From: Streptomyces sp. AM 4-1-1 | GTDB lineage: Bacteria; Actinomycetota; Actinomycetes; Streptomycetales; Streptomycetaceae | DNA length: 64,000 nt | Direction of reading: 5' to 3' | Assembly: GCF_029167625.1 (NCBI RefSeq) | Contig: NZ_CP119145.1 | Span: 4,464,001 to 4,528,000 of the forward strand | Shown: positions 20,692 through 40,189 of the stretch, piece after piece | Position numbering within the stretch: the stretch's first letter is position 1 | Layout of the letters: each line of letters begins with the position of its first letter | Made by a program: the position numbers and the translations under genes | Notes under the pieces: generated by a model | Seen by the model: the letters and a program-made list of their open reading frames with translations, nothing else | What the model was told of the DNA's origin: nothing | Database searches by the model: none

Positions 20692-20719
20692 CCGCCGGGC
20701 GGTGTGGCACTCTACGAGG

Positions 20720-23244: not shown

Positions 23245-23834
23245 AGGGAGCGCCCGTATCCGGGCGGCGACGAACCCTCCAGCGGGCGGCTGTTCGCGGT
23301 GGACAGCAGCTGGAGGCCCAGCCGCAGCCGCCGCCGGGCCTCGTCCTCGGTGATGCCGAGGTCGGCGGCGGTCTGCCGGTAGTCCCGGCGCTGGAAGTAC
23401 GCAAGCTCCAGGGCGGCCCGCAGCGGTGACGGCATCGAGGTGACGATGTAGTCGGCGCGCGCCGACGCGGTCGCTCTGCGCACCTTCTCCTCCAGCGCGT
23501 CCAGCTCCCGCGGGTCCGCTTCGCCGCCGACCTGCCGGTGCGCGGCGGCCTCGGCCATGCGCAGCCGCTGGACGGCCTGGCGGTGGGTGAGCCGGGCCAC
23601 CCAGGCGCGCATCGAGCCCTGCTTCGGGTCGTACGTCTCCGGGTTCTCCCAGACGTGACCGAAGACCTCGCGGGTCACCAGGTCCGCGGCGGCCTCGTCG
23701 TCGAGGACCAGGTGGGCCTGGCTGTGGACGAGCGAGGCGAACCGGTCGTACAGCTCGCCGAGCGCCGCCGCTTCGCCACGGGCCAGCCGTTGCTGCATCC
23801 TGCGGTCCCAGCGAGGTGGTGAGTCCATCGGCAT
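23241..23834 (-). CDS. ECF-type RNA polymerase sigma factor
   Basis: 197 residues with sigma region 2 (ALGELYDRFASLVHSQAHLV, EVFGHVWENPETYDPKQG, WVARLTHRQAVQRLR) and region 4 (LRAALELAYFQRRDYRQTAADLGITEDEARRRLR). ATG 23834 follows AGGGGGG on the minus strand. The anti-sigma gene follows with translational coupling. Regions resemble the group whose S. coelicolor member is next to a STAS gene; here the STAS gene is 16.6 kb away beyond the accessory block. Confidence 0.92.
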   Translation of the reverse strand: MPMDSPPRWDRRMQQRLARGEAAALGELYDRFASLVHSQAHLVLDDEAAADLVTREVFGHVWENPETYDPKQGSMRAWVARLTHRQAVQRLRMAEAAAHRQVGGEADPRELDALEEKVRRATASARADYIVTSMPSPLRAALELAYFQRRDYRQTAADLGITEDEARRRLRLGLQLLSTANSRPLEGSSPPGYGRSL

Positions 23835-24616: not shown

Positions 24617-25207
24617 ATGGGCAAGATCGCCGTACTCACGAACGACCTGCAGGCCGACGTCGTCCACAAGACCCCTGAGCGCACCGCGGCGATGGCGGAT
24701 GCCCAACCGGTCTTCGTGAAGTTCCTGGACGCGATGCGTCAGCGCGGACACGGCGTCTATCACCTGCAGTTGGTGAACCTGCCGGACGACCCGAACGTGG
24801 AGCGCGACCTCGACGGCACCCTTCCCCTTCAGCGCGGCAGCGCCGGCGCGGCCATCCTGCACGACTTCACCGCCCCGACGGACGTGGTCGTGGAGAAGAA
24901 CAAGGACAGCGGCTTCTACGAGACCGAGCTGCACGACCTCCTCCAGAAGGCGGGCGTCGACACGGTGCTGGTGACCGGCCTGCAGACCCAGATATGCGTC
25001 CAGACCACCGCCGCGGACGCCTTCTTCCGCGGCTACAACATCTGGGTTCCGTCCGACTGCGTGGTCTCCGGTGACCCCGAGGCGCGCGACCGGTCCCTGG
25101 AATGGCTGCGCGGGTACTGCGCCACGGTCGCCGACTCGGCCGAGATCCTGGACACCCTCGACACCCGGGGCGAGCTGCCCCGCAAGGTCGTCAAGATCCT
25201 TCCGTAG
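24617..25207 (+). CDS. Isochorismatase-superfamily cysteine hydrolase
   Basis: 196 residues; the Asp-Lys-Cys triad of the family is visible: TNDLQADVV (Asp10), VVEKNKDSGFYET and VTGLQTQICVQTTAADA (Cys near 119). Members hydrolyse amides and carbamoyl groups (nicotinamidase, N-carbamoylsarcosine amidase) or isochorismate. ATG 24617 follows CGAGGA. It opens the eleven-gene block, 56 bp before the HypE gene. Because HypE/HypF work on a carbamoyl group, an N-carbamoyl or amide substrate is attractive, but this is inference. Confidence 0.88.
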   Translation: MGKIAVLTNDLQADVVHKTPERTAAMADAQPVFVKFLDAMRQRGHGVYHLQLVNLPDDPNVERDLDGTLPLQRGSAGAAILHDFTAPTDVVVEKNKDSGFYETELHDLLQKAGVDTVLVTGLQTQICVQTTAADAFFRGYNIWVPSDCVVSGDPEARDRSLEWLRGYCATVADSAEILDTLDTRGELPRKVVKILP

Positions 25208-25263
25208 TCCCTTCGTTCCGCAGCTCGCACCCCCACGAACCGCATGCCCTGAAGGGACCACGG

Positions 25264-26289
25264 ATGACCACCCCGGCAGCCGACCTCGGCGAAATCGTTC
25301 TCGACCACGGAAGCGGGACCCAGCTCAGCCATGAGCTGGTCTCTCTCATCGTGGAAACCCTCGGCGACGTCTACATCGGCGAGATGGAGGACAGCGCCAT
25401 GCTGCCCTTCCCGGGCGGTCAGATGGCCATGACCACCGACTCGTTCGTCGTCGACCCGCCGTTCTTCGGCAACGGGGACATCGGGAAGATCGCGGTCTGC
25501 GGCACGGTCAACGACCTCGCCGTGGTCGGCTCCAGGCCGTTGTACCTCACGCTCGGCATGATCCTGGAGACCGGGCTGCCGGTCTCGCGGCTGGTGCAGG
25601 TCCTCACCTCCATCAGGGAGACGGCTCGCGAGGCGGGCGTCCAGATCGTGTGCGGGGACACCAAGGTGGTGCGCAAGGGCGAGGCGGACCAGATCTACCT
25701 CAACACCGCCGGGGTCGGCGTGTTCGAGCGGTCGCCGCTGCGCATGCGGAACGTCCGGCCCGGCGACCGGGTCATCCTCAGCGGCCCCATCGGCAACCAC
25801 ACGGTCCACCTGCTGTCGATCCGCGAGGGACTGGGCTTCGAGCAGCGCGTACTCAGCGACTGCGCGCCGGTCAACGGCATGCTGGACGAGCTGTTCGCCG
25901 GTGTCGGCGAGGACGACGTGCACTCGGTGCGCGACGTCACCCGGGGCGGACTGGCGGCCGTGCTGCAGGAATACTCCGAGGCCGTCGGACGCACCATCAG
26001 CATCGACCAGGCCGCCCTGCCGATCCAGTTCGAGACCGTCATGGCGATGGACATGCTCGGGATCAACCCGATCCACTCCGCCAACGAGGGCTGCGTCTGC
26101 CTGTTCGTCGACCCGTCGGCCGAGCAGTCGGTGCTGGACACGCTGCGCTCCCACCGTTACGGCTCGGGCGCGGTGACCATCGGCGAGGTCACCGAACAGG
26201 CCGACGCCCAGGTGCTCCTGCGGGACGCGGACGGTCGCGTCACCGTGGTCGAGGAGCTTCAGGGCGCCGAGCTGCCCCGGCTCTGCTGA
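25264..26289 (+). CDS. hypE: HypE-type carbamoyl dehydratase
   Basis: 341 residues with the AIR-synthase/HypE fold. AMTTDSFVVDPPFFGNGDIG, then KIAVCGTVNDLAVVGSRP form the ATP site; VCGDTKVV and DVTRGGLAAVL are as in HypE. The protein ends LPRLC; in HypE the C-terminal Cys of the PRxC tail is carbamoylated by HypF and dehydrated with ATP to a thiocyanate, so the reactive residue is kept. In hydrogenase maturation the cyanide then goes to iron on HypC-HypD; neither exists here. It sits between a cysteine hydrolase and hypF, co-directional with biosynthetic genes. SelD/ThiL were considered and excluded by the tail. Confidence 0.93.
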   Translation: MTTPAADLGEIVLDHGSGTQLSHELVSLIVETLGDVYIGEMEDSAMLPFPGGQMAMTTDSFVVDPPFFGNGDIGKIAVCGTVNDLAVVGSRPLYLTLGMILETGLPVSRLVQVLTSIRETAREAGVQIVCGDTKVVRKGEADQIYLNTAGVGVFERSPLRMRNVRPGDRVILSGPIGNHTVHLLSIREGLGFEQRVLSDCAPVNGMLDELFAGVGEDDVHSVRDVTRGGLAAVLQEYSEAVGRTISIDQAALPIQFETVMAMDMLGINPIHSANEGCVCLFVDPSAEQSVLDTLRSHRYGSGAVTIGEVTEQADAQVLLRDADGRVTVVEELQGAELPRLC

Positions 26290-26302
26290 CCCCGCCCGGA
26301 TC

Positions 26303-28672
26303 ATGGAAGAGACACCACTCACGAAGCGCCGGAGCATCCGGGTCACCGGCGTGGTCCAGGGCGTCGGCTACCGGCCGTTCGTCTACAAGGCGGCCCACGC
26401 ACTCCAGTTGACCGGATGGGTCCTCAACGATCCGGAAGGCGTGCTGATCGAGGTCACCGGACCGGCCGGTGTGCTCGACGAGTTCGCCGGGCGGCTGAGC
26501 GAGCAGGCACCCCCGCAGGCCCGCGTCACCTCGGTGCGTGTCGAGGAACTGCCACTGCCCGCGAGGCTCCCGGAGAACTTCGTCATCCGGGAGAGCGTGC
26601 GCAGCGGAAGCAAGAGCACCATCGTCCCCGCCGACGGTCACGTCTGCGCGGACTGCCTCGCCGAGATGCGCGACCGTACGGACCGCCGGTACCGCTATCC
26701 GTTCATCAACTGCACGAACTGCGGTCCGCGTTACTCCATCGTGCGGGCGCTGCCGTACGACCGGGCGCAGACCACGATGTCGGCCTTCACCATGTGCCCA
26801 CCGTGCGCCGGGGAGTACGCGGACCCGCTGGACCGGCGCTACCACGCCCAGCCCAACGCGTGCGGGGACTGCGGCCCCGAGCTGCTGCTCGCCGACGCCG
26901 CAGGTGACGTACGGCGCGGTGAGGACGCCCTGTCCGCCGCCGTACGGGCGCTCGTCGGAGGGGGCATCGTCGCCGTCAAGAGCGTCGGCGGCTTCCACCT
27001 GGCCGTCGACGCGCGCGACGCCGGGGCGATCGACCGGCTGCGGGCGGGGAAGCGGCGCGACTCCAAGCCGTTCGCGGTGATGGCGCGCGACCTGGACACC
27101 GTCGCCGGGTTCGCCGAGTTCAGTCCGGCCGAAGCCGGTCTGCTCAGCTCGTCGTCCCGCCCGATCGTCCTGGTGCGCAAACGGCCGGGCGCCCTGCCCG
27201 AGGCCATCGCCCCCCGCAACCCCAATCTCGGGGTCATGCTCCCCTCGGCCCCGCAGCACCACCTGCTGGTGGACAGCGCCGGGCTCGGCGCGCTCGTGAT
27301 GACCAGCGGGAACATCTCCGGTTACCCGATCGCCTACCGCAACGAGGAGGCGCTGGAACACCTCTTCCGGATCGCCGACCTGGTGCTCTACAACGACCGG
27401 GACATCGAGACCAGGGTCGACGACTCGCTGGTGCGGCACTCGGTGCACGCCGGGCTCGACCGGCCGCTGGTCAGCTTTCTGCGCAGGGCGCGTGGTTACG
27501 CCCCGTACCCGGTGGAGGTCGGCGTCGAACTGGTGCCGCTGGTGGCCTACGGCGCCGAGCTGAAGACCACCGTGGCGCTGTCGAGCGGCACGCGCGTCCA
27601 CCTCAGCCAGCACATCGGCGACCTGAAGAACGACGAGACCTGGGAGTCGCACCAGCAGACCGCCCGGCATCTCGCCCACCTCCACGAGCTGACGCCCCGG
27701 CACGCGGCGGTGGACCTCCACCCGCAGTTCCGCGCCACCCGGCTGGCGCTCCAGGAGCGGGGCGGATCGTTCGGAGAGGTGGTCCAGGTGCAGCACCACC
27801 ACGCGCACATGGCCTCCTGCATGGCCGAGAACCGGCTCACCGGGACCACCCTCGGTGTGATCTTCGACGGAGCCGGCTACGGCGAGGACGGCACGACCTG
27901 GGGCGGCGAGTTCCTGCTCGGCACGTACCGCGAGGTCCGCCGTGTCGCCCATCTGCGCACCGTTCCACTGCTCGGGGGCGACCGCGCGGTGCGGGAGCCG
28001 ATCAGGACCGGCTTCGCACTGGCCCTGGACGCCTTCGGCGACACCGATGCCGCCGGTGCCGCCTTCCCGGTGCTGGAAACCCTCGACGACCAGCAACGTC
28101 ACGTCTTCGCGACCATGGCTCGGCGCGGGGTCAACGCCCCGCCGTCGTCCAGCATGGGGCGGCTGTTCGACGCCGTCGCGGCTCTGCTCGACGTCACCAC
28201 GCACGCCGAGTACGAGGCACAGGGGCCGATCGAGCTGGAGGGGCTGCTCGCGCGGGACCTGACGATGTCCGGTCCGGCGGAGCGCTACCGGTTCGGCGGC
28301 GGCACCTCCGCCGGCGCGACGGAGATCGATCCACGCCCCGTGGTGCGGGCCATCGCCGCCGACCTCGCGGCCGGTGCGGACACCGCCACCGTCAGCCGGC
28401 GCTTCCACTCGGGAGTGGTCGACATGGTCGTCGAACGCTGCCGGGCGGTACGGACGGACACGGGCGGTCGGGCGACCGGTCAGGTGGTGCTCTCCGGAGG
28501 CGTCTTCCTCAACGAGTTCCTGCTGGTCAACTGCATGGTGGAGCTGGGCCGCGCGGGGTTCGACGCCTACTGCCAGCAGCAGGTGCCCACCAACGACGGC
28601 GGTATCGCCCTGGGACAGATCATGGTGGCCAACGCCCGGCTGACGGCGGAGAGCGCGGAGCCGGCGCGATGA
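26303..28672 (+). CDS. hypF: HypF-type carbamoyltransferase
   Basis: 789 residues with all four HypF parts in order: acylphosphatase domain (VTGVVQGVGYRPFVYKA), zinc fingers (CADCLAEM, CTNCGPRYS, CPPCAGEY, CGDCGPE), YrdC-like domain (KSVGGFHLAVDA, RAGKRRDSKPFAVMA) and a Kae1-like carbamoyltransferase domain (VQHHHAHMASCMAE, GVIFDGAGYGEDGTTWGGEF, LSGGVFLNE, PTNDGGIALGQ). The family turns carbamoyl phosphate and ATP into carbamoyl-AMP and loads HypE. Length and motifs argue against decay. It follows hypE by 13 bp and overlaps the ATP-grasp gene by 4 bp. Confidence 0.95.
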   Translation: MEETPLTKRRSIRVTGVVQGVGYRPFVYKAAHALQLTGWVLNDPEGVLIEVTGPAGVLDEFAGRLSEQAPPQARVTSVRVEELPLPARLPENFVIRESVRSGSKSTIVPADGHVCADCLAEMRDRTDRRYRYPFINCTNCGPRYSIVRALPYDRAQTTMSAFTMCPPCAGEYADPLDRRYHAQPNACGDCGPELLLADAAGDVRRGEDALSAAVRALVGGGIVAVKSVGGFHLAVDARDAGAIDRLRAGKRRDSKPFAVMARDLDTVAGFAEFSPAEAGLLSSSSRPIVLVRKRPGALPEAIAPRNPNLGVMLPSAPQHHLLVDSAGLGALVMTSGNISGYPIAYRNEEALEHLFRIADLVLYNDRDIETRVDDSLVRHSVHAGLDRPLVSFLRRARGYAPYPVEVGVELVPLVAYGAELKTTVALSSGTRVHLSQHIGDLKNDETWESHQQTARHLAHLHELTPRHAAVDLHPQFRATRLALQERGGSFGEVVQVQHHHAHMASCMAENRLTGTTLGVIFDGAGYGEDGTTWGGEFLLGTYREVRRVAHLRTVPLLGGDRAVREPIRTGFALALDAFGDTDAAGAAFPVLETLDDQQRHVFATMARRGVNAPPSSSMGRLFDAVAALLDVTTHAEYEAQGPIELEGLLARDLTMSGPAERYRFGGGTSAGATEIDPRPVVRAIAADLAAGADTATVSRRFHSGVVDMVVERCRAVRTDTGGRATGQVVLSGGVFLNEFLLVNCMVELGRAGFDAYCQQQVPTNDGGIALGQIMVANARLTAESAEPAR

Positions 28673-29949
28673 CACGACCGCACGGGCACATCGTCGTCCT
28701 GCACCGCTGGCGCGACCGGCACGCCCACTACGCCGACTACCTGGACCACGACGCCTACCGGGTCAGTTACGTGACGACCCGGCTCGGCCTGGCCTCCGTC
28801 CCGGCCGCCGCGGCCGCAGTCGCCGAGGTCTCCGCCACCGACTCGCTGGCCGAGACCACGGCCGCGGTGGCCGCACTGGCCGAACGGCTCGGTCCGGTAC
28901 GGCGCCTGGTGGCCCTCAACGAGGGCGACCTCGACACGGCCGCGGCGCTGCGGGCCGGGTTCGCCCTGCCCGGCCAGTCCGCCCAGGAGCTGGAGCGGTT
29001 CCGGGACAAGCTCACGATGGTCACCCTGGTGGACCGGGCGGGGATCGCGGTCCCCCGCTACGGCGACGCGGTGAGCCGGGAGTCCGTACGGGAGTTCGCC
29101 CGGAGCAACGGCTGGCCGGTGGTGGTCAAGCCGCGCCGCGGCACCGCGAGCCGTGGTGTGGCGGTACTGCGCGGCCCGGCCGACCTGGACGCGTCCGCGC
29201 TGTTCGACGGGGCATCCTCCGAGTCCCGCATCGCGCAGTCCTTCGTCGCCGATCCCGTCTTCCACGTCGACGGGCTGTGGACCGGGTCCGCACTGGGGCC
29301 GTGGCGCGCGTCGCGTTACGTCAACAGTTGCCACGACTTCACCGAAGGGGCCTTCCTCGGCTCGGTCGAGGTCGACGAACCCGAACTGCTGCCCCCGCTC
29401 GCGGACTTCACCGCGGCCGTCGGCGAGGCCCTGGGGGAGGGGCGGCCCTGGGTCTTTCATCTGGAGGTGTTCGTGGGCTCCGGTGAGGACGGCGCCCCAC
29501 GGCTCACATTCCTGGAGGCCGGGGCCCGGGTGGGAGGCGGCGAGATCCCCTTCGTCTGGCGGGAGGTCCACGGCCTGGACCTGATGGCCGCCGCCGCGGA
29601 CATCCAGATGGACCGCCCGCCGGCCGTGCCCGCCACCGGCTCCGCTCCCGGAGGCACGGCCGGATGGCTGTTGCTGCCCATGCCCGTTCCGGCGCCCTGC
29701 CGGGTGGTCGAGGTGACCCGGGTGCCGGACCTCACCGGCCCGGAGTCCGGCCCGTACGCGCGGGTGGTGCCCGAGCCGGGCACCGTGATCCCGCGGACCG
29801 GTGGCTACGAGCACGTCGCCGCCCGCTTCCGGTTCCGCGGCTCCTCCAGCCGCGAGGTGGAGGCGGCGATCGAGAAGACCGCCGGGGCCTTCACCGTCCG
29901 TTGCGAGTCCCTGCCGGTCCCAGCACCACAACCAGCGAAGGAAATGTGA
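28669..29949 (+). CDS. ATP-grasp carboxylate-amine ligase
   Basis: 426 residues of the L-amino-acid ligase/BacD-like ATP-grasp class, forming amide bonds through acyl-phosphates. RDKLTMVTLVDRAGIAVPRY and WPVVVKPRRGTASRGVAVL hold the nucleotide-binding lysines; LTFLEAGARVGGGEIP is the Mg-binding segment, with Glu then Gly-Gly instead of the more usual E-N-R. Its start overlaps the hypF stop (ATGA). With no NRPS modules in the block, this is a likely peptide-bond-forming step. Substrates unknown. Confidence 0.88.
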   Translation: MTRPHGHIVVLHRWRDRHAHYADYLDHDAYRVSYVTTRLGLASVPAAAAAVAEVSATDSLAETTAAVAALAERLGPVRRLVALNEGDLDTAAALRAGFALPGQSAQELERFRDKLTMVTLVDRAGIAVPRYGDAVSRESVREFARSNGWPVVVKPRRGTASRGVAVLRGPADLDASALFDGASSESRIAQSFVADPVFHVDGLWTGSALGPWRASRYVNSCHDFTEGAFLGSVEVDEPELLPPLADFTAAVGEALGEGRPWVFHLEVFVGSGEDGAPRLTFLEAGARVGGGEIPFVWREVHGLDLMAAAADIQMDRPPAVPATGSAPGGTAGWLLLPMPVPAPCRVVEVTRVPDLTGPESGPYARVVPEPGTVIPRTGGYEHVAARFRFRGSSSREVEAAIEKTAGAFTVRCESLPVPAPQPAKEM

Positions 29950-29956
29950 GCGTCCG

Positions 29957-32590
29957 ATGAGTGAGCCCAGGAGCCATCTCATAGTGGTGGGCAGCCGGTT
30001 GAAGGCGTACCGCGAGTACGCGATGGCCTCCCTGGCCCGGCGGTACGACATCGCTCTGGTGACCTCGCAGGAGGTCACCTGGGAGAAGTCGTACGTCTCC
30101 GCCTACCGGACGGCCGACACCACCGACGCCCACGCCCTGCGCGGCGCGGTCGAGGACCTCCTCACCGTGACACCCGCCGGAACCGGACTGTTCACCTGGG
30201 ACGAGCTGTCCCTGATCGCCACCTCCGAGGTGGCCGAACAGCTCGGCCTGCGGCATCTGTCCGCGTCGGCCGCCACCGCCTGCCGCGACAAGTACGCCGC
30301 CCGAGGGCTGCTGGACCGGGCCGGACTGCCGGGCGTGCGGCACCGCCTGGCGCACTCCGTCGAGGAGGCGTCCGCCGCGGCCGCCGCGATCGGCTACCCC
30401 GTGGTGCTCAAGCCGCGCTCACTGGCGGGCAGCATGGGCGTCACCGTGGCACGCGACGCCGCCGAACTGCGGGACGCCTACGCCGCGGTCGTCCGCACGA
30501 CGTTCCCGGGAATCCGTACCGAGGCCGGCGTACTGGTCGAGGAGTACCTCCAGGGCCCCGAGATCAGCGTCGACAGCTGTGTGGTCGACGGCGAGGCCGA
30601 ACCGGTCTTCGTCGCCCGCAAACGCCTCGGCTTCCATCCCGCCTTCGAGGAGGTCGGCCACCTGGTCGGCCCGTGGCGCCACGAGCCGTGGGCCGCCGAG
30701 GTGGAGGACCTGGTCAAGGCGGCACACCGGGCGCTCGGCGTCGAGCTGGGCCTCACCCACACCGAGATCCGGCTGACCCCCTCCGGCTGCCGGCTGATCG
30801 AGCTCAACGGCCGTCTCGGCGGTGACCTCATCCCGCACCTGGGCGCACTGGCCACCGGGATCGACCTGCCGTCGGCCGGTGCCGCGCTGGCGTCCGGGGC
30901 GCGGCCCGACCTCGCCGCGGCCCACGACCGCTGGGCGGAGGTCCGCTTCCTCTACCCCGCGCACGACGGCGTCCTGGAGCGGCTGGAGCTGGGCGGAGCG
31001 GCCGAGGTGCCGGGGGTGGCGGAGATCATCACCCTGGCCGGACCCGGTGACGAACTGCTGCTGCCGCCGCAGGCCCTCACCCCGCGTACCGCCGCGGTGA
31101 TCGTCGTGGGCGACGACGCGGCCGGATGCACCGCGGCCCTGGACCGCGCCGAGGCGGAGGTGGTCCCGGTGCTCCGCGGCTCCGCGCTGGACGGACTGGG
31201 AGCGCTGCTGGAGAACCCGGTCACCCGCCGCTACCTGGCGCTGGAGAACGGCCTGGAGAACATGGTCGTTCCCGAGCTGCGCAACGACTGGAACAGCTAC
31301 GGAGCGGGGGGCGGAAAGGCCCTGAACCGGCCGGTGTTCCTGGCGACCGCGGACCGGCTCGGCCTGGAGGCCGACCTCAACGGACTGTTCGAGCTGCTGA
31401 CGACCATCCCCGACCGGCTCTTCGGCGGTGACCGCCGGGCGTTCGCCGAAGCCGTGGGCATGACGCCCACGCAGATCGACCTGGTGACGCGCGGCGCGGG
31501 CCTGCGGATGCCCGCGATGTCCCGGGCCGACATGTACCGCGAGCCGGGCGGGTTCAAGCTGATGGAACTCAACACCGGCAGCTCGCTGGGTGGTTGGCAG
31601 ATGGGGGAGTTCTCCCGGCCGGCCGGCCGCAACAAGGCGTTCCGCGACTTCACCGACTCCGAGGGTCTGGTCCACCCGGACCCCGTCGGACGGATCGCCG
31701 ACGTCCTGCGCGCCGAGGCGGCCGACGCGGGCTTCGAACTCCCGGCCCGTCCGGTGCTGGCCCTGACCGAGTGGCCCGACGGCTACGACCACACCAAGCC
31801 CTGGCTGGACTTCGTGGTGCCCGACTGGCTGCGGCACGGGTTCGACACCGTCGTGTGCAGCCTCGCGGAGTTCGACTACCGCGACGGCGTGCCGTACATC
31901 CACGGCCGCAAGGTGGACGTGGTCTACCGGATCTTCCTGCCCGGCGAAATGGCCGACGAGCAGCGCAGCCACGACCTGGTCGACCCGCTCCTGGACGCCG
32001 TCGGACAGGGGCACACCTTCCTGTTCGCCGGACTCGACTGCGAGCTGTACGGCAACAAGGGCAGCCTCGCGATGCTCAGCGACGAGCGCAACCGCGACGC
32101 CTTCACCGCCGCCGAGCACGGACTGATCGACCGCATCCTGCCGTGGACCCGCTTCCTGCGGGACGAGTCCGTGCGGCGTGACGACGCGGACGTCGATCTG
32201 CTGCCGTATGTACTGGCCCACAAGGACCGGCTCGCGCTGAAGCCCACCCTGCTGTACGGCGGTGTCGGTGTCGTCCCCGGCTGGTCGGTGGACCAGGAGG
32301 AGTGGGAGAGGCACGTGCGCGGCGCGGTGGACGGCCCGTACGTGGTCCAGGAACGCGTGCTGCCGGTCGCCGAACGGTTCGTCGCCGAGGACGGCCGTGG
32401 ATTCGAGCGGATGGTGGTCGCCTACGGCGTGCTCATGGTCGGCGGCGCGTACGCCGGCATGCTGGTGCGCGGTACCCCCGACCCCCGGGTCGGCATCGTC
32501 AGCATGTCCAACGGCGCCCAGATCGGCTGCTGTTACCACATCGAGGACGACGCCGCGGGCGCCGAGGCGGTCGCCGGGGTCCAGGAGTGA
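29957..32590 (+). CDS. Fusion of ATP-grasp ligase and circularly permuted ATP-grasp
   Basis: 877 residues. Residues 1 to about 405 are a second carboxylate-amine ligase: RDKYAARGLLDRAGLPG, YPVVLKPRSLAGSMGVTV (near 150) and RLIELNGRLGGDLIPH. Residues about 415-877 resemble circularly permuted ATP-grasp enzymes related to glutathionylspermidine synthase: FKLMELNTGSSLGGWQM (near 535) comes before LALKPTLLYGGVGVVPG and YVVQERV, the reverse of the normal order. The two halves likely catalyse successive ligations. ATG 29957 follows AAGGAAA at 29938-29944. It overlaps the transporter start (GTGA). I know of no characterised protein with exactly this fusion. Confidence 0.85.
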   Translation: MSEPRSHLIVVGSRLKAYREYAMASLARRYDIALVTSQEVTWEKSYVSAYRTADTTDAHALRGAVEDLLTVTPAGTGLFTWDELSLIATSEVAEQLGLRHLSASAATACRDKYAARGLLDRAGLPGVRHRLAHSVEEASAAAAAIGYPVVLKPRSLAGSMGVTVARDAAELRDAYAAVVRTTFPGIRTEAGVLVEEYLQGPEISVDSCVVDGEAEPVFVARKRLGFHPAFEEVGHLVGPWRHEPWAAEVEDLVKAAHRALGVELGLTHTEIRLTPSGCRLIELNGRLGGDLIPHLGALATGIDLPSAGAALASGARPDLAAAHDRWAEVRFLYPAHDGVLERLELGGAAEVPGVAEIITLAGPGDELLLPPQALTPRTAAVIVVGDDAAGCTAALDRAEAEVVPVLRGSALDGLGALLENPVTRRYLALENGLENMVVPELRNDWNSYGAGGGKALNRPVFLATADRLGLEADLNGLFELLTTIPDRLFGGDRRAFAEAVGMTPTQIDLVTRGAGLRMPAMSRADMYREPGGFKLMELNTGSSLGGWQMGEFSRPAGRNKAFRDFTDSEGLVHPDPVGRIADVLRAEAADAGFELPARPVLALTEWPDGYDHTKPWLDFVVPDWLRHGFDTVVCSLAEFDYRDGVPYIHGRKVDVVYRIFLPGEMADEQRSHDLVDPLLDAVGQGHTFLFAGLDCELYGNKGSLAMLSDERNRDAFTAAEHGLIDRILPWTRFLRDESVRRDDADVDLLPYVLAHKDRLALKPTLLYGGVGVVPGWSVDQEEWERHVRGAVDGPYVVQERVLPVAERFVAEDGRGFERMVVAYGVLMVGGAYAGMLVRGTPDPRVGIVSMSNGAQIGCCYHIEDDAAGAEAVAGVQE

Positions 32591-33921: not shown

Positions 33922-33993
33922 GAGCACCCCTTCCGGCGCTCCCCCTGCCCACCGCCCATGCCGTCGTCCGCCCTATCGCGTAGGAGATCACTC

Positions 33994-35544
33994 GTGACCA
34001 CGAACGTGCCTGGTCCGCTGTACCAGCCCGCCGGGACCGCCGCAGGACTGGAGAGCGTACGGACCCTGGTGAACACCGCCCTGGACATCCTCCAGGAGGT
34101 CTCCGCCGCGCGTCTGGGACCGGTGGCGCCCGGCGGCCCGGAAGGCGCCCGCGCCGCCGCCGGCCGAGCGCTGGCGGGCCCGCTCCTGCCGGAGGAGGGC
34201 GGCGACCCGGCCGCCGTGCTGGCGGAGCTGATCCGGCCCTACGCCCAGTGGTCGGTGGACATCACCCACCCGGCGGCGCTGGCCCGGATGCAGCCACCGC
34301 CCGCCGACGTGGCCGTCACCGCCGAGCTGGTCACCGCCATCCTCAACCAGTCCCTGCACGCCTGGGAGAGCGGACCCTTCGCCCTGGAGCTGGACCGCTG
34401 GGTCATCGCCCAACTGGCCGAACTGGTCGGCTACGACGCCTCGGAGGCGGGCGGCGCGCTCACCCCGGGCGGCAGCGTCTCCAACCTCATGGCGATGACC
34501 ATGGCCCGGGACACCACCCTGGCGGAGAAGACCGGCGACTACCCCTTCGCCGGGGGGCTGCGCCGGCTCGACGTCCAGCCGGTCGTGCTGTGCCCGGCGG
34601 GTGTGCACTTCTCCGTCGAACGCGCGGTGCGCCTGCTGGGCCTGGGCGAGGAGCACATCATCACCGTCCCGGTGGACAAGGACGGCCGGATGATCCCCGA
34701 GGAGGCCGACCGCGTTCTCACGGAGCTGCCCGCCGACCAGGTCGCCGTCGCCCTCGTGGCGGTCGCGGGCTCCACCGACCTCGGCATCGTCGACCCCCTT
34801 CCCCGGCTCGCCGAGATCGCCCGGCGCCACGGCGTCTGGCTGCACGCCGACGCGGCCTACGGGGCCGGCGCGCTGTTCTCCCCCCGGCTGCGCGGCATGC
34901 TCGACGGGCTGGCCGAGGCCGACTCGGTCACCGTCGACCTGCACAAGTTCGGCTGGGCCCCGGCCTCCTCGGCCGTCCTGCTGGTCCGCCGCGCCGAGAC
35001 CATGCTCTCGTTCGGCCTCCAGCCCACCACCTGCCTCAGTGCCGACGACGACACCTGCGCCGGGTTCATCGGACTCCAGAACACCTCCCTCCAGACCACC
35101 CGGCGGGCGGACGCCCTCAAGATCGCGGTCACCATGCGGACCCTCGGCAGCAAGGCCATGGGCGCCATGGTGGACACCTGCCACGACCTCGCCCGGCACG
35201 CCGCGGCCTGGATCGACGCCCAGCCGCGCCTGGAACTCGGCACCGAACCGCCGCTCACCGCCGTGCTGTTCCGCTACCTCCCCGATGGCGGCCTGGACAC
35301 CGACGCCTTCAACGGCGCCCTGCGCCGCCGGGTCATGGAGGAGGGGCGCGCGCTCATCGCGCGTACGCACATCGCCGACGGGTCGGGCGGCAGCAGGGTC
35401 TTCCTCAAGCTGATGCTGCTGAACCCGGAGACCACGACCGGCCAACTCGACGCCGTGTGCGAGGAGGTGCTGGCCATCGCCACCGAGATGGAGGCCGCCG
35501 CACTGCGGACCCCGGCCCGGGGAGCCGGCCCGGCCGGCTCCTGA
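33994..35544 (+). CDS. PLP-dependent group II decarboxylase
   Basis: 516 residues from GTG 33994 (TAGGAG at 33981-33986). The family signatures are THPAALARMQPP, LTPGGSVSNLMAM, WLHADAAYGAGALFSP and TVDLHKFGWAPASSA, where the Lys of DLHK binds PLP. It is most like diaminobutyrate/aspartate-type decarboxylases and the VinO-type enzyme that decarboxylates 3-methylaspartate in vicenistatin-class macrolactams. The glutamate mutase genes 1.4 kb downstream support 3-methylaspartate as substrate, giving 3-aminoisobutyrate. Alternative substrates are aspartate or diaminobutyrate. Confidence 0.87.
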   Translation: MTTNVPGPLYQPAGTAAGLESVRTLVNTALDILQEVSAARLGPVAPGGPEGARAAAGRALAGPLLPEEGGDPAAVLAELIRPYAQWSVDITHPAALARMQPPPADVAVTAELVTAILNQSLHAWESGPFALELDRWVIAQLAELVGYDASEAGGALTPGGSVSNLMAMTMARDTTLAEKTGDYPFAGGLRRLDVQPVVLCPAGVHFSVERAVRLLGLGEEHIITVPVDKDGRMIPEEADRVLTELPADQVAVALVAVAGSTDLGIVDPLPRLAEIARRHGVWLHADAAYGAGALFSPRLRGMLDGLAEADSVTVDLHKFGWAPASSAVLLVRRAETMLSFGLQPTTCLSADDDTCAGFIGLQNTSLQTTRRADALKIAVTMRTLGSKAMGAMVDTCHDLARHAAAWIDAQPRLELGTEPPLTAVLFRYLPDGGLDTDAFNGALRRRVMEEGRALIARTHIADGSGGSRVFLKLMLLNPETTTGQLDAVCEEVLAIATEMEAAALRTPARGAGPAGS

Positions 35545-35617
35545 GCGGCACCGGTCCCACGGAGAGACGTCCCCGAGTCCCCAGTCCAGCTCGAAGACCA
35601 GCGGAGAGAGAGCGGCG

Positions 35618-36859
35618 ATGCCCGAGGTGAACGACCCGCGTACGCGCCCCGGCCGCGTGCCCGGCGACGGGACCGGCCATGGCTCCGGCGCGCCGGACCG
35701 CGTGCGCGAATCCATGCGGGTGCTGCCGCGCCCCTTCGCCGTGCCGCTCACCCTGCTGACCGGCCGCCCGTACGCCGGTCAGCGGGCGGTCCACTTCACA
35801 CCGACCCGCCATCTGGTGAACGCCGTCATGTCGATCGCCTGCGGGGTGGCCCTCAGCGGGACCGCGCTGTGGGCGGCGGGCTGGCTCCTGGTCCTGCTGC
35901 TGCCCGGGTGGGCGATGACCCTGCACGGCGCCCGGAACCTGCGGATGATGGTCTACCACCAGTGCGCCCACCAGAACATGTGGCGGCGGCGCGGCGCCGA
36001 CGCCGCCCTGGGCCGGTTGCTCGCCGCCGTGCTCCTGGTCCAGGACTTCGGCCGGTACAGCGTGGAGCACGTCGGCGACCACCACGCCCTGCATCACATG
36101 ACGCGCCGCGATCCCACGGTCCAGGCCGTCCTGATCAGCCTGGAACTGCGCCCCGGGATGTCCCGCCGCCAGATGTGGCGGCGGATGCTGGGGAAGGTCT
36201 TCTCCCCCTGGTTCCACGCCAGGTTCCTCACCGCCCGGTTCCGCTCGTACTACTCCTTCGCGAGCACCGGCGGGCGCGTGGCGTCCGCGGCCGGCCTCGT
36301 CACGGTCGCGGCGCTGGCCACCTGGCTCCACCTCTGGCTCTTCGTACTGCTGGCCTGGGTACTGCCGATGACGGTCCTCTTCCAGATGAGCAACGTCCTG
36401 CGGCTGTGCGTCAAGCACACCTTTCCCGCACCGGACCGGACCGTGCGCCGGGGCAAGGCGTACTTCGCCGGCCTCACCAACGCCATCTTCATCGGCGAGG
36501 CGGCCCCCTCGCCGGAACTGCCACGGCCGCGCCGGTACGCGGCCTGGGCGCGCTGGTGGACGCGGATGCTGCTGATCCACTTCCCCAGCCGGTACCTGGT
36601 CCTCACCGGCGACACCGTGGTCCACGACTTCCACCACAGGCATCCGATGAACAAGGACTGGGCGAACTACATCTTCGCCCGCGAGGAGGACCACCGCCGT
36701 GGCAGTCCCGGCTGGCCCGACTACCACGAGGTCTGGGGGCTGGTCGCGGCGATCGACCTGGTCTTCGACTCGCTCCGGGAAGCCGACCCGGAGGAGTACC
36801 ACCCCGACCGGATCACCGAGGTCAACCACCGTGAGCTGTTCATGGCGTTCGACGACTGA
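35618..36859 (+). CDS. Membrane di-iron fatty-acid-desaturase-like enzyme
   Basis: 413 residues with the three histidine boxes of membrane di-iron desaturases/hydroxylases: YHQCAHQN, HVGDHHALHH and VVHDFHHRHP, plus several hydrophobic stretches (SIACGVALSGTALW, GWLLVLLLPGW, LHLWLFVLLAWVLPM). The family inserts double bonds or hydroxyls in acyl chains or amines. The first 35 residues are polar. ATG 35618 follows GGAGAGAGAG. There is no fatty-acid synthase nearby, so the substrate may be a small amide or amine rather than a lipid; not decidable from sequence. Confidence 0.85.
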   Translation: MPEVNDPRTRPGRVPGDGTGHGSGAPDRVRESMRVLPRPFAVPLTLLTGRPYAGQRAVHFTPTRHLVNAVMSIACGVALSGTALWAAGWLLVLLLPGWAMTLHGARNLRMMVYHQCAHQNMWRRRGADAALGRLLAAVLLVQDFGRYSVEHVGDHHALHHMTRRDPTVQAVLISLELRPGMSRRQMWRRMLGKVFSPWFHARFLTARFRSYYSFASTGGRVASAAGLVTVAALATWLHLWLFVLLAWVLPMTVLFQMSNVLRLCVKHTFPAPDRTVRRGKAYFAGLTNAIFIGEAAPSPELPRPRRYAAWARWWTRMLLIHFPSRYLVLTGDTVVHDFHHRHPMNKDWANYIFAREEDHRRGSPGWPDYHEVWGLVAAIDLVFDSLREADPEEYHPDRITEVNHRELFMAFDD

Positions 36860-36934
36860 CCGCCGCGCCCGCCCCGATCCGACCCAGCCACCGTCCCACC
36901 CCGTGAGCACCCGTCCCCAGGAGGAATGGAGCCG

Positions 36935-37378
36935 ATGATCACGATTCCAGGGCAGAGCGGACGCCTCGTCATCCTGGGCGTCGCCGAGAGCGATGCGCAC
37001 GCCGTCGCCAACCACCTGATCACCATGCAGTTGCGGGACCACGGCTTCACCGTGGTCAACCTCGGTGTCTGCACCCCGCTGAGCGACTTCGCCGACGCCC
37101 TGGACCGGCACCCCCAGGCCGAGGCCGTCCTGATCGGCACCCTCAACGGCCACGCCCACCAGGACCTCAGGGCCCTGCCGGAGCTGCGCGCCGCCGGGCG
37201 GCTGAACTGCCCCGTGGTGGTCGGTGGCAACCTCTCGGTCGGCAGCCACAAGGACGACGCCGACGAACGGCGACTGTACGACCTGGGCGTCGACCACCTG
37301 CTCTCCGACGCCGGCGAACTCGTGCTGCTGCTCGACAGGCTCCACGCGACGATGGCGGCCGAGTCGCGGAATGGCTGA
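36935..37378 (+). CDS. glmS: Glutamate mutase B12-binding (sigma/S) subunit
   Basis: 147 residues, cobalamin-binding Rossmann domain of glutamate (methylaspartate) mutase. The DxHxxG motif appears as D20-A-H22-A-V-A25: the histidine that replaces the lower base ligand is kept, the glycine is alanine. The later VVVGGNLSVGSHK and VLIGTLNGH fit the family. AGGAGGA at 36919-36925 suits ATG 36935 better than ATG 36926, which would leave no spacing. It overlaps the large-subunit gene by 8 bp, so the two are coupled. (Gene symbol is used for the mutase, not glucosamine synthase.). Confidence 0.87.
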   Translation: MITIPGQSGRLVILGVAESDAHAVANHLITMQLRDHGFTVVNLGVCTPLSDFADALDRHPQAEAVLIGTLNGHAHQDLRALPELRAAGRLNCPVVVGGNLSVGSHKDDADERRLYDLGVDHLLSDAGELVLLLDRLHATMAAESRNG

Positions 37379-38771
37379 ACTGAACGGCCTCGAACTGGCC
37401 CCGGAGGTCGCCGCCGCCCTGCCCGGCTGGTCCGACATCCTGACGTATCTCCAGGACGCCCGGCGTCCCTTCGTCGTCGACGTGCTGCGCGCCGCCGACG
37501 CCGCCGGCCGCCCGGCCGTCCAGCCGCGCTGCGGCGTCGGCGGGCACGAGGAGATGCTGGCGCTGCTGCGTGAACTCGAACCCGCCGGGCCCGACATCCT
37601 CTCCGTCACCATCGACGCGCACACCCGCCTGCGGAAGTTCGACACCGCCCGCGAGCTCATGCTCGACAGCCCGGCCGACCTCAACGGCTACCCGTTGGTG
37701 TCGCACGGCTGGCGGCGGGGCCGGGAACTCGGCGAGGCCGTCCACGTCCCGCTGGAGGTCCGGCACGGCTCGCCCGACGGCCGTGACCTGTTCGCGGTGT
37801 CGATCGCCGCCGGAATCACCTCCTTCGAGGGCGGCGGCATCGGTTACAACCTGCCGTACTCCAAGAACGTGCCGCTCTCCCGGTCGCTGCGGGCCTGGCA
37901 ACAGGTGGACGCTCTGTGCGGCGCCCTCGCCGCGTCCGGACTGATCATCGACCGCGAGCTGTTCGGCACCCTGACGGCCGTACTCGTCCCCCCGTCGGTC
38001 AGCCTCGCCATGACGATGCTGGAAGGGATCGCGGCGGTCCGGGAGGGCGTCCGCTGTCTGTCGGTCTCCTATCCGCAGGGCGGCGAACCGCACCAGGACA
38101 TCGCGGCCCTGCGCGCCGTCCGGACGCTTTCGCGCCGCTACCTCGGGACGGCGGTCGAGGTGTACCCGGTGCTCCACGAGTTCATGGGGGTCTTCCCGGC
38201 CACCCCCGAGTTCGCCGGGCTGCTGATCCTCCACGGCGGCCTGACGGCCCGGCTCGGCGGCGCGACCAAGGTGATCAACAAGACCGTGCAGGAGGCGTAC
38301 GGCATCCCCGACGCCGGCGCCAACGCGAACGGTCTGCGCATCGCGGCGCTGGGCGCCTCGCAGCTGCTCGACTTCGTCCGCGTCGACGAGGACCGCGTCG
38401 CCGAGGAACAGCACTGGATCGAACGGGAGGTCGCCGAGATCATCGAGCCGGTGCTCGCCACCGGCGCGCTGTTCGACAGCATCGACGCGGCGTTCCGCGC
38501 CGGCCGCCTGGACATCCCCTTCAGCGCCAGTGTCCACGCCCGCTCCCAGGTGATCCCCCGACGCGACCGCACCGGTGCCGTCCGGTACGGCGACAGCGGG
38601 GGCCTGCCGTTCTCCGGCGCCGTGCTCCGCCGGCAGGCCGACCTGCTCAGGGAGCCGGAGGGCACCCGGCCCCGCACCCGCATCGAAGCGGCCACCGCCG
38701 ACATCCACTACTTCCCGGACCTGGAGAACGCCTTCCGTTCCGGCTGCTCCCCCTACCGTTCACAGCCCTGA
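37371..38771 (+). CDS. glmE: Glutamate mutase catalytic (epsilon/E) subunit
   Basis: 466 residues, TIM-barrel subunit of coenzyme-B12-dependent glutamate mutase, turning L-glutamate into threo-3-methylaspartate. Recognisable segments are RCGVGGHEEMLALLREL, NGYPLVSHGWRRGREL, SFEGGGIGYNLPYSKNVPL, YPQGGEPHQDIAALRA and KVINKTVQEAYGIPDA. ATG 37371 lies inside the S-subunit gene. No MutL/GlmL reactivase is in the block. Methylaspartate is known as a precursor of aminoisobutyrate starters and of lipopeptide residues. Confidence 0.92.
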   Translation: MAELNGLELAPEVAAALPGWSDILTYLQDARRPFVVDVLRAADAAGRPAVQPRCGVGGHEEMLALLRELEPAGPDILSVTIDAHTRLRKFDTARELMLDSPADLNGYPLVSHGWRRGRELGEAVHVPLEVRHGSPDGRDLFAVSIAAGITSFEGGGIGYNLPYSKNVPLSRSLRAWQQVDALCGALAASGLIIDRELFGTLTAVLVPPSVSLAMTMLEGIAAVREGVRCLSVSYPQGGEPHQDIAALRAVRTLSRRYLGTAVEVYPVLHEFMGVFPATPEFAGLLILHGGLTARLGGATKVINKTVQEAYGIPDAGANANGLRIAALGASQLLDFVRVDEDRVAEEQHWIEREVAEIIEPVLATGALFDSIDAAFRAGRLDIPFSASVHARSQVIPRRDRTGAVRYGDSGGLPFSGAVLRRQADLLREPEGTRPRTRIEAATADIHYFPDLENAFRSGCSPYRSQP

Positions 38772-38782
38772 TCGAGGTACTG

Positions 38783-40189
38783 ATGACAACCGAGAACCCG
38801 ACCGTCCCCCAGCCGACCGGCCCGCGTCCTGCCACGCCGGACCCGCAGAAGGGGGCCCGGGTCGTCGCCGACGACCGGGCCCATCTCTTCCACTCCTGGG
38901 CCGCCCAGGGCAATCTGGCCCCGGTGCCCGTGGCGGGTGCCTCGGGGCGGTACTTCTGGGACTACTCAGGGAAGCGCTACCTGGACTTCTCGTCCCAGTT
39001 CATCAACCTGAACATCGGGCACGCGCACCCCAAGGTCGTCGCGGCGATCAAGGACCAGGCCGACGAGATCTGCATGATCGCCTCGACCTTCGCCAACGAC
39101 AAGCGCGGTGAGGCGGCCCGGCTGATCGCCGAGCTGGCGCCCGAGGGGCTCGACCGGGTCTTCTTCACCAACGGCGGGGCGGAGGCCAACGAGCACGCGG
39201 TGCGGATGGCCCGCATGCACACCGGCCGTCCCAAGGTGCTGTCGGCCTACCGTTCGTACCACGGCGGCACGTCGACGGCCATCAGCCTGACCGGTGACCC
39301 CCGCCGCTGGGCCAACGAGCACTCCGGCAGCGCTTCGGGAAACGTCGCGCACTTCTTCGGCCCGTACCTCTACCGCTCACACTTCCACGCGGCCACCGAG
39401 GCCGAGGAGTGCGCGCGGGCCCTCGCCCACCTGGAGCAGGTCATCGCCTTCGAGGGCCCTTCGACGATCGCCGCGGTCGTCCTGGAGACCGTCGTCGGCA
39501 CGGCGGGCATCCTCGTACCGCCGCCCGGCTACCTCCAGGGCGTCCGTGAGCTGTGCGACCGCCACGGCATCCTCTACATCGCCGACGAGGTGATGTCCGG
39601 CTTCGGGCGCACCGGCGCGTGGTTCGCCGTCGACCACTGGGACGTCGTCCCCGACCTCATCACGTTCGCCAAGGGGGTCAACTCCGGCTACGTCCCGCTC
39701 GGCGGCGTACTCCTCTCCGACGCCGTCCACGAGACCTTCCGTGACACGGTCTACCCCGGCGGCCTCACGTACTCCGGGCATCCGCTGGCCTGTGCCGCCG
39801 CCGTCGCCACCATCACCGCGATGAAGGAGGAGCGGATCAACGAGAACGCCACACGCGTCGGCGAGGAGGTCATCGGCCCCGGCCTGCGGCAGATCGCGGA
39901 GAACCACCCGTCGGTCGGTGAGGTGCGCGGCCTGGGCGTCTTCTGGGCGGTGGAACTGGTACGCGACCGCGAGACCCGCGAAATGCTCGTTCCGTACGCG
40001 GCGGGAGGCGCCCTGACGCGCCCGGTGGACGAGGTGGTCGCCGCCTGCAAGGAGGGCGGCCTGTGGCCCGTCTACAACTTCAACCGCATCCACGTCGTCC
40101 CGCCGTGCAACATCACCGACGACGAGGCGCGTGAGGGTCTGGCGATCCTCGACGGAGCGCTCTACGCCGCCGACAAGTACGTCGGCTGA
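38783..40189 (+). CDS. Class III aminotransferase
   Basis: 468 residues, fold type I PLP enzyme of the omega-aminotransferase group (taurine- or beta-alanine-pyruvate type). YLDFSSQFINLNIGHAHPKV, FFTNGGAEANEHAVRMAR, ADEVMSGFGRTGAWFAV and LITFAKGVNSGYVPLGG (Lys binds PLP) are present. Such enzymes act on terminal amines and beta-amino acids, so it could deaminate 3-aminoisobutyrate or aminate an aldehyde intermediate. It is the last gene of the block, 11 bp after glmE, followed 6 bp later by a strong terminator. Confidence 0.9.
   Translation: MTTENPTVPQPTGPRPATPDPQKGARVVADDRAHLFHSWAAQGNLAPVPVAGASGRYFWDYSGKRYLDFSSQFINLNIGHAHPKVVAAIKDQADEICMIASTFANDKRGEAARLIAELAPEGLDRVFFTNGGAEANEHAVRMARMHTGRPKVLSAYRSYHGGTSTAISLTGDPRRWANEHSGSASGNVAHFFGPYLYRSHFHAATEAEECARALAHLEQVIAFEGPSTIAAVVLETVVGTAGILVPPPGYLQGVRELCDRHGILYIADEVMSGFGRTGAWFAVDHWDVVPDLITFAKGVNSGYVPLGGVLLSDAVHETFRDTVYPGGLTYSGHPLACAAAVATITAMKEERINENATRVGEEVIGPGLRQIAENHPSVGEVRGLGVFWAVELVRDRETREMLVPYAAGGALTRPVDEVVAACKEGGLWPVYNFNRIHVVPPCNITDDEAREGLAILDGALYAADKYVG

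Follow-up and report, generated by a model that had tools for sequence, protein, structure and literature searches.

The question raised by the locus

HypE and HypF are textbook hydrogenase maturation proteins, and in that role they convert carbamoyl phosphate into a protein-bound thiocyanate (as set out in the accessible parts of PMC12134894 and PMC4506123). What they might be doing where no hydrogenase is found is the question raised by the window analysed here, i.e. a stretch of 64,000 nucleotides of Streptomyces sp. AM 4-1-1 (contig NZ_CP119145.1, positions 4,464,001 to 4,528,000 of the forward strand), in which hypE and hypF belong to a block of eleven genes. An earlier note on this DNA had suggested that the pair serves a purpose other than hydrogenase assembly and may supply a small molecule with such a group as cyano or carbamoyl. 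Genome searches and the gene settings of relatives now bear out the first half of this suggestion, while the donation itself is still something that we infer. Gene 1 of the block, which had gone unmentioned in the earlier note, encodes an isochorismatase-family cysteine hydrolase (ICH) that accompanies this type of HypE at every locus gathered. In the reading that we favour, to which a probability of about 0.55 is given, HypF and HypE would make a HypE-bound thiocyanate (HypE-S-CN) from carbamoyl phosphate, and ICH, with its invariant Cys127, would likely pass the cyano group to an amine. The three genes, hereafter the cassette, are as follows.

24617..25207, + strand: ICH, isochorismatase-family cysteine hydrolase, cassette gene 1 (126.6 bits; Asp10, Lys94 and Cys127)
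25264..26289, + strand: HypE, cassette gene 2 (414.7 bits against TIGR02124, above the curated equivalog cut-off of 251.6; C-terminus GAELPRLC; 25264 is the start used, the longest open reading frame beginning further upstream)
26303..28672, + strand: HypF, cassette gene 3 (TIGR00143, 700.8 bits, cut-off 466.1)

Hydrogenase genes in the host and in other cassette genomes

The host genome (7.47 Mb, 99.99% complete) holds a single copy of HypF and no match to either HypD (PF01924) or HypC (PF01455), each of which was detected in 4 of 14 control genomes. Neither was the [NiFe]-hydrogenase large subunit found there, since its sole match stays under the cut-off (21.2 versus 25.8 bits) and falls inside the 49-kDa subunit of complex I (236.2 bits). 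HypA and HypB were looked for by sequence comparison near the cassettes only, with no genome-wide search: sequences of HypA, HypB, HypC, HypD or hydrogenase subunits occur in one of 57 cassette records (7 of which repeat others), as compared with all six control loci, the sole positive being Paraburkholderia phymatum, with a hydrogenase locus next door. The absence of hydrogenase and of HypA-D, which the earlier note had reported for the block, extends to the whole genome for hydrogenase, HypC and HypD, and for HypA and HypB to the surroundings of the cassettes, with the one exception just named; the hydrogenase locus elsewhere in the genome that it had named as a test was not found.

In 20 other genomes that carry the cassette and are at least 90% complete (a count that leaves out G038, which is not a cassette genome, and G374, 55% complete), HypD is absent in 7 and located elsewhere in 13, at least 7 of which show a second HypE, of about 41-44% identity, directly beside HypD. 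Because HypC, HypD and hydrogenase are missing from the host genome, HypD is missing from 7 of the 20 others, and the gene settings are many and unrelated, the conclusion that HypE and HypF serve here something besides hydrogenase is well supported.

Linkage and distribution of the cassette

Wherever HypE of at least 49% identity was found, ICH and HypF accompany it; this is so at 50 of 50 distinct loci, which represent no fewer than seven gene settings. The loci were gathered by similarity to HypE or ICH, so that this figure means that every locus of that HypE type holds the other two genes; loci lacking ICH, all with less similar HypE, are not counted among the 50. Three samples give the same picture. 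In the genus, HypE of at least 54% identity is present in 22 of 392 sampled congeners (host genome included), the next best reaching 48% and lower; ICH and HypF are present in all 22 loci (roughly 4 kb each), and both are missing from the eight congener loci fetched with HypE at 44-48% (L025-L032). A collection of named genomes returned 50 loci, where all 38 with HypE at 49% or above carry the three genes together and the 12 at 41-47% have no ICH. Lastly, among 72,556 plasmid records, whose gene tables are incomplete, ICH (E 1e-20 or better) was found in ten, the same ten that hold HypE of at least 54% identity, and no such ICH in the other 95 with HypE (45.8% or less among those listed). The pairwise distances of ICH, HypE and HypF correlate at 0.86-0.94 over 38 loci, as expected for a unit inherited together.

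The hosts include Streptomyces, Nocardia, Rhizobium, Paraburkholderia, Photobacterium and Citrobacter. Class-wide, the cassette is rare: HypE at E 1e-80 or better is found in 2 of 394 genomes (the host and one congener, hence 1 of 137 genera), as compared with 22 of 392 within the genus. DNA of the Citrobacter operon has no match in the E. coli genomes searched. Gene arrangement is not entirely fixed, ICH being divergently transcribed in four Streptomyces loci (L098-L101) and on the S. clavuligerus plasmid, and a drug/metabolite transporter (DMT) gene lying between hypE and hypF on the Rhizobium plasmid. One locus (L070) is frameshifted; it was counted by pieces among the 50 and left out of the comparison of HypE termini and of the tree. 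The constant partner of hypE-hypF is ICH; ATP-grasp genes, whose co-occurrence the earlier note had proposed to search for, are found at 23 of the 50 loci.

What the three proteins conserve

HypF shows the domain order acylphosphatase, zinc fingers, YrdC and Kae1-like (five Pfam families in sequence); among 39 cassette HypF sequences the acylphosphatase and finger motifs are kept in 37 and the Kae1 His motif in all.

Cassette HypE ends in LPRLC in 48 of 48 sequences, the C-terminal cysteine being kept, and the hydrogenase-type HypE compared end in LPRIC (15 rows); the two groups are told apart by this change of Ile to Leu. Both types have 67 near-invariant positions in common, and six others set them apart; the shared ones include Asp84, Lys134, Arg227, Asn274, Glu275 and Cys341 (83, 133, 224, 271, 272 and 336 in E. 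coli), some of which presumably act in ATP binding and dehydration. With these residues kept, dehydration to thiocyanate would be expected of cassette HypE as well. In a tree of 75 HypE rows (from which L106, identical to L025, was dropped), the 15 hydrogenase-type rows form one clade (100/100) apart from the 48 cassette rows. The 12 cysteine-free homologues make up a third clade, nested among the cassette rows; several branches are long and the deep placings unsure. Six rows owe the hydrogenase label to annotated hyp neighbours; for L076, L115 and the seven Streptomyces rows L026-L032 it follows from the LPRIC end and the tree position. One of these is HypE of an Acaryochloris plasmid (L115:2971-4083), whose 7 kb carry no other annotated hyp or hydrogenase gene; this locus was kept out of the hydrogenase controls.

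The cysteine-free homologues (L071-L075, L077-L082 and L106), most of them without Lys133, Arg224 and Glu272 (E. coli numbering), occur together with a major facilitator superfamily (MFS) transporter family at 12 of 12 loci and an AfsA-type protein family at 11 of 12; HypF or ICH was not detected at these 12 loci.

ICH has an isochorismatase-like fold, and those listed as close to it belong to hydrolases, isochorismatases or uncharacterised family members. It resembles enzymes with N-carbamoyl compounds as substrates (triuret, biuret, N-carbamoylsarcosine and ureidoacrylate), though other members of the family score about equally. The triad Asp10/Lys94/Cys127, which we take to be the catalytic triad of isochorismatase-like hydrolases, is complete in the host; among 38 aligned loci the cysteine is kept in all and Lys94 in 32, and Gln123 and Gln129, around Cys127, are invariant. 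In six Nocardia sequences (L055, L056, L057, L061, L062 and L066) the cysteine is kept with Asp10 replaced by Gly and Lys94 by Arg.

A possible reaction sequence

On these grounds a sequence of five steps may be drawn. In the first, HypF, in which all domains are present, would carbamoylate the C-terminal cysteine of HypE, as in the known chemistry of the family. In the second, HypE, retaining the cysteine and the shared residues, would use ATP to dehydrate the carbamoyl group to HypE-S-CN. In the third, ICH would take the cyano group on Cys127, or position HypE for the transfer, and deliver it to an acceptor; ICH is thus likely a cyano transferase that would replace the missing HypC and HypD, a step proposed because of its obligate linkage, its invariant cysteine and the short enterobacterial operons described below. 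In the fourth, the acceptor would probably be an amine made by the accompanying pyridoxal phosphate (PLP) enzyme, i.e. diaminobutyrate in several relatives and an amine derived from 3-methylaspartate in the host cluster. Cyanogen bromide reacts with an amine that has an amine or hydroxyl nearby to yield a cyclic guanidine or isourea; by analogy, and speculatively, the product might carry an N-cyano group or, where an adjacent amine or hydroxyl attacks that group, be a cyclic guanidine or isourea. In the fifth, ATP-grasp ligases would join the building block to amino acids, and an MFS protein would export the product.

Gene settings across the 50 loci

The cassette is the constant part while the surrounding genes vary, as the following list illustrates. 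For each type, one or two representatives were scanned for gene families, and the result was extended to the others by similarity.

Type A (11 loci, host cluster): ICH, HypE, HypF, two ATP-grasp proteins, MFS, decarboxylase, di-iron protein, MutS, MutE, aminotransferase
Type B (4 loci; Amycolatopsis, Saccharothrix, Streptomyces): epimerase, DegT aminotransferase, Nudix, phosphatase, MFS, carbamoyl-phosphate synthase
Type C (9 loci; L047 cut short, L070 frameshifted): GNAT, haem-oxygenase-like protein, diaminobutyrate transaminase, MFS, M20 hydrolase, two ATP-grasp proteins
Type D (7 loci): non-ribosomal peptide synthetase (NRPS), PLP enzyme like transaldolase/serine hydroxymethyltransferase (SHMT), gamma-glutamyl hydrolase
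Type E (6 loci, Nocardia): UbiA, HisC-like aminotransferase, thiamine pyrophosphate enzyme, SBF transporter (as read in L061; aminotransferase in 4 of 6)
Type G (5 loci): DUF3865 protein, agmatinase-like ureohydrolase, MFS; ATP-grasp in two
Photobacterium: ATP-grasp, diaminobutyrate transaminase, EamA
Actinosynnema: diaminobutyrate transaminase
Streptomyces TRM68367 (L067): mutase, aspartate-kinase-like protein (under cut-offs); diaminobutyrate transaminase, located upstream of the cassette
Alphaproteobacterial metagenome-assembled genome: DegT aminotransferase, Nudix; carA-carB after hypF
Paraburkholderia phymatum (L108:10757-18059, symbiotic plasmid): diaminobutyrate transaminase, GNAT, cassette, adjoining hydrogenase locus
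Citrobacter and Salmonella plasmids (L110:10001-15871 and L109:5187-11101): ICH, HypE, HypF, HAD protein, MFS; divergent LysR adjoining
Rhizobium plasmid: short-chain dehydrogenase/reductase (SDR) and ATP-binding cassette (ABC) transporter genes on the same strand, then the cassette; DMT transporter

NRPS genes are found at 7 of the 50 loci. Carbamoyl-phosphate synthase genes stand beside the cassette at 5 of 50, one with carA-carB directly after hypF. The shortest operons are the five-gene ones of the Citrobacter and Salmonella plasmids, where the HAD protein is sugar-phosphatase-like (below family cut-offs); as they consist only of the cassette, this phosphatase and the MFS transporter, ICH is the sole further enzyme common to all loci. 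Two neighbours may be recorded in passing, i.e. a ribonucleotide-reductase-like gene three genes upstream of the cassette in the alphaproteobacterial genome (L069:5568-7259), and a nitrilase-superfamily (CN_hydrolase) gene within an NRPS-type locus of Nonomuraea (L065:15430-16395).

The host cluster

The eleven genes at 24617-40189 all lie on the + strand, with intergenic gaps of -8 to +73 bases, so that the tightly spaced, co-directional block with full-length HypE and HypF described in the earlier note is confirmed. The labels it had given to the remaining genes hold too, several as remote family matches only. After the cassette, these genes are:

28669..29949, + strand: ATP-grasp protein 1, weak family match (PF02222 22.5 bits, cut-off 27; NF002563 49.1 bits, cut-off 625)
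29957..32590, + strand: ATP-grasp ligase 2 (PF13535 68.5 bits, clear in the N-terminal half)
32587..33921, + strand: predicted MFS exporter (PF07690 117.4 bits, scanned from an upstream-extended start)
33958..35544, + strand: PLP decarboxylase, like L-2,4-diaminobutyrate decarboxylase RhbB (PF00282 156.5 bits; NF052646 281.3, cut-off 900)
35618..36859, + strand: predicted membrane di-iron oxygenase of FA_desaturase type (PF00487 38.2 bits; NF041365 35.5, cut-off 380)
36926..37378, + strand: B12-binding S subunit (MutS), methylaspartate (glutamate) mutase-like (PF02310 44.1 bits; NF002612 92.1, cut-off 110)
37371..38771, + strand: E subunit (MutE) of the same mutase-like enzyme (PF06368 368.4 bits, extended start scanned)
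38783..40189, + strand: class III aminotransferase (PF00202 321.7 bits, extended start scanned; NF004718 757.6, cut-off 472)

ATP-grasp protein 1 is kept in gene order among relatives. ATP-grasp ligase 2 is, in its N-terminal half, like L-amino-acid ligases (nearest solved chain 3vot); its C-terminal half has no match among PDB sequences up to E 1, and the structure model of that half, built from 6 near-identical rows, is unusable (pLDDT, the model confidence score, 34). The di-iron protein distantly resembles the arginine hydroxylase GntB, its translation shows His boxes, and it has no match among PDB sequences up to E 1. Both mutase subunits remain below the curated equivalog cut-offs (92.1 versus 110 and 321.3 versus 390.1 bits), so that their assignment as mutase-like is due to the Pfam matches. 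The solved chain nearest to the class III aminotransferase in the PDB comparison is taurine:2-oxoglutarate aminotransferase (6jix).

Conservation of the neighbourhood in other strains, which had also been proposed as a test, is found: type A gene order recurs in all six relatives whose cluster was read over its full length, and MutE, 72-88% identical, is present in all nine searchable type A genomes (in L040 on a separate contig), these covering nine of the ten named type A loci, with L044 left out. Just upstream of the cluster (21826-23834 of the window) lies a minus-strand pair of a sigma factor and a zinc-finger, anti-sigma-like protein; the sigma gene is unmatched in the 0.5-2.3 kb of upstream flank from relatives. 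A PurU-like formyltransferase with an ACT domain (20702-21628) is an ordinary C1 enzyme.

Candidate acceptors

Near the cassette an aminotransferase is found at 29 of the 50 loci, an SHMT/transaldolase-like PLP enzyme at 7 and an agmatinase-like ureohydrolase at the five type G loci. Diaminobutyrate transaminase adjoins the cassette in type C, Actinosynnema, Photobacterium and Paraburkholderia, is located upstream of it in L067, and comes directly after hypF in L049, L059 and L068; three of four scanned pass the TIGR00709 cut-off, L067 (start called short) staying below. The type C M20 hydrolase scores 239.8 bits as an N2-acetyl-diaminobutyrate deacetylase (cut-off 550), and higher, 270.2, with a carboxypeptidase family; together with the GNAT protein it might act as if one amine were protected while the other is modified. 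In L067, mutase, aspartate-kinase-like protein and diaminobutyrate transaminase suggest 3-methyl-diaminobutyrate; for the host cluster, with its mutase, RhbB-like decarboxylase and taurine-type aminotransferase, the candidate is an amine derived from 3-methylaspartate.

An expression study of P. phymatum nodules provides, in its accessible part, some information on one such operon: in a nifA mutant, ectB (-7.58), the GNAT gene (-8.06), hypE (-5.17) and hypF (-7.47, all log2-fold) decrease, and the authors see a possible connection between ectB and the lower level of 2,4-diaminobutanoate (PMC8305402). The data show that expression of the operon is NifA-dependent and say nothing on function; neighbouring hydrogenase genes respond likewise (PMC8305402, same part).

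Weighing the proposal against its alternatives

Several points weigh against cyano transfer by ICH to an amine. The proposal derives from sequence and gene context, with the roles of the HypE and ICH residues presumed and with product, transfer and acceptor putative. Members of the ICH family are hydrolases, so ICH could hydrolyse an intermediate; the loss of Asp10 and Lys94 in Nocardia can be read either way. The acceptor in the host cluster is a guess, and no amine-making enzyme was found at 9 of the 50 loci, i.e. four of type A (where the fetched stretch stops before the aminotransferase), two of Nocardia (none within 10 kb downstream) and three on plasmids. Finally, the Rhizobium cassette, split by its transporter gene and preceded by ABC and SDR genes, is no short operon.

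The alternative that survives best, unlikely as we hold it to be, is transfer of the carbamoyl group only, HypE acting as its carrier and ICH moving it to an amine or hydroxyl to give a urea or carbamate. The likeness of ICH to N-carbamoyl-acting enzymes would suit it, though other members of the family reach similar scores. Against it, cassette HypE keeps residues in common with the dehydrating hydrogenase-type HypE, several of which are lost in the cysteine-free homologues, and carbamoyl phosphate is used by simpler enzymes, the N- and O-carbamoyltransferases (accessible part of PMC6022934). Doubtful, too, is that ICH is a clean-up or deblocking hydrolase (e.g. for stray N-carbamoyl or cyanamide by-products), with HypE transferring the cyano group alone or with pathway enzymes. 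The amide-hydrolase triad, complete outside Nocardia, and the close folds listed speak for such an activity; the presence of ICH at all 50 loci while other pathway enzymes vary, and its retention in enterobacterial operons that add to the cassette just a phosphatase and a transporter, speak against it. The composition of these operons is in turn what would be expected if the cassette released a free C1-N compound (cyanamide, thiocyanate, cyanide or cyanate) as end product or diffusible building block. This we consider improbable, given that the ATP-grasp, aminotransferase and NRPS genes (23, 29 and 7 of 50 loci) call for a larger product, and that the sugar-phosphatase-like HAD protein points to a phosphorylated acceptor.

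Modification of a ribosomal peptide (RiPP) is very improbable: the decRiPPter study lists one hypE/hypF/ATP-grasp candidate cluster (accessible part of PMC7794033), but NRPS and amino-sugar settings do not fit, and no precursor gene was seen in the gaps (73 bases or less) or as a conserved stretch in the 783 bases upstream, where, of ten relatives compared, just the nearest two show likeness extending over several hundred bases. That the genes are leftover or moonlighting hydrogenase maturation genes can be dismissed almost outright, for, while HypE and HypF pass hydrogenase-maturation family cut-offs and 13 of 20 other cassette genomes hold HypD elsewhere, none was found in the host and the 7 others, hydrogenase-type HypE forms a clade of its own, the HypD-bearing genomes often (at least 7 of 13) have a second HypE beside HypD, and hyp or hydrogenase genes are near one cassette record in 57.

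What the cassette would mean

Cyano transfer by ICH to an amine can be placed, more tentatively and at somewhat less than even odds, in a wider frame. Carrier-protein thiocyanate and an ICH cysteine cyanotransferase would constitute an undescribed pathway class, i.e. a biological counterpart of cyanogen bromide that turns amines into cyanamides and cyclised guanidines or isoureas, on a cassette that moves between phyla into NRPS, ATP-grasp, amino-sugar and nodule-expressed pathways. Should the cassette work as proposed, natural products could acquire C-N triple bonds or guanidines by one more route; ICH-HypE-HypF without HypC/HypD would be a three-gene marker by which genome mining could find cryptic products of antibiotic-producing genera; the enzymes would provide a means of cyanation that may do without the iron scaffold; and annotation of hypE/hypF alone would not be evidence of hydrogen metabolism. 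Whether the system is new in kind depends on the transfer step, given that its enzymes come from known families and that known chemistry is expected for steps one and two.

Comparison with known systems

The earlier note knew of no characterised pathway with this gene set. An orphan cluster had, in fact, already been remarked on: the 2020 decRiPPter study describes, in its accessible part, a Streptomyces candidate with hypE, hypF and ATP-grasp but no other hyp genes, and proposes a 'novel function' (PMC7794033). That cluster, which may be of the same type, is a RiPP candidate there; the word isochorismatase is absent from the main text, and breadth, plasmid spread and non-RiPP settings were not seen in that part. 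What does stand of the claim is that no paper on the ICH partner, the breadth of the cassette or its chemistry was found among open-licence papers, most subscription journals and all preprints lying outside that search. Two apparent precedents were discarded, PMC5867869, where only a primer is named HypF, and PMC10454058, where hypE is presented, in the accessible part, as a hydrogenase gene.

The closest system is synthesis of the CN ligands of [NiFe]-hydrogenase (HypE, PDB 2i6r; HypE-HypF, 3vti), with which the cassette shares the HypF domains, the conserved HypE residues and the C-terminal cysteine. It differs in having no HypC/HypD scaffold or hydrogenase, an obligate ICH, LPRLC in place of LPRIC, and neighbours of biosynthetic type. 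O-Carbamoyltransferases of the TobZ and GdmN type place a Kae1-like domain before a YrdC-like one and have no acylphosphatase or zinc fingers (accessible part of PMC6022934); assignment of cassette HypF to this type is ruled out by its YrdC-then-Kae1 order, acylphosphatase and fingers. With the isochorismatase-like amide hydrolases (N-carbamoylsarcosine amidase, 3eef; triuret hydrolase, 6xix; biuret hydrolase; RutB) ICH shares the fold and, outside Nocardia, the triad, but it stands beside HypE-HypF at all 50 loci with Gln123 and Gln129 invariant, and its role would be that of a transferase. The single oxidase AetD, which forms nitriles, would likewise place a cyano group in a natural product; as described in the accessible part of PMC11611611, it does so by rearranging part of its own amino-acid substrate, whereas here the cyano carbon would come from carbamoyl phosphate by way of a carrier protein.

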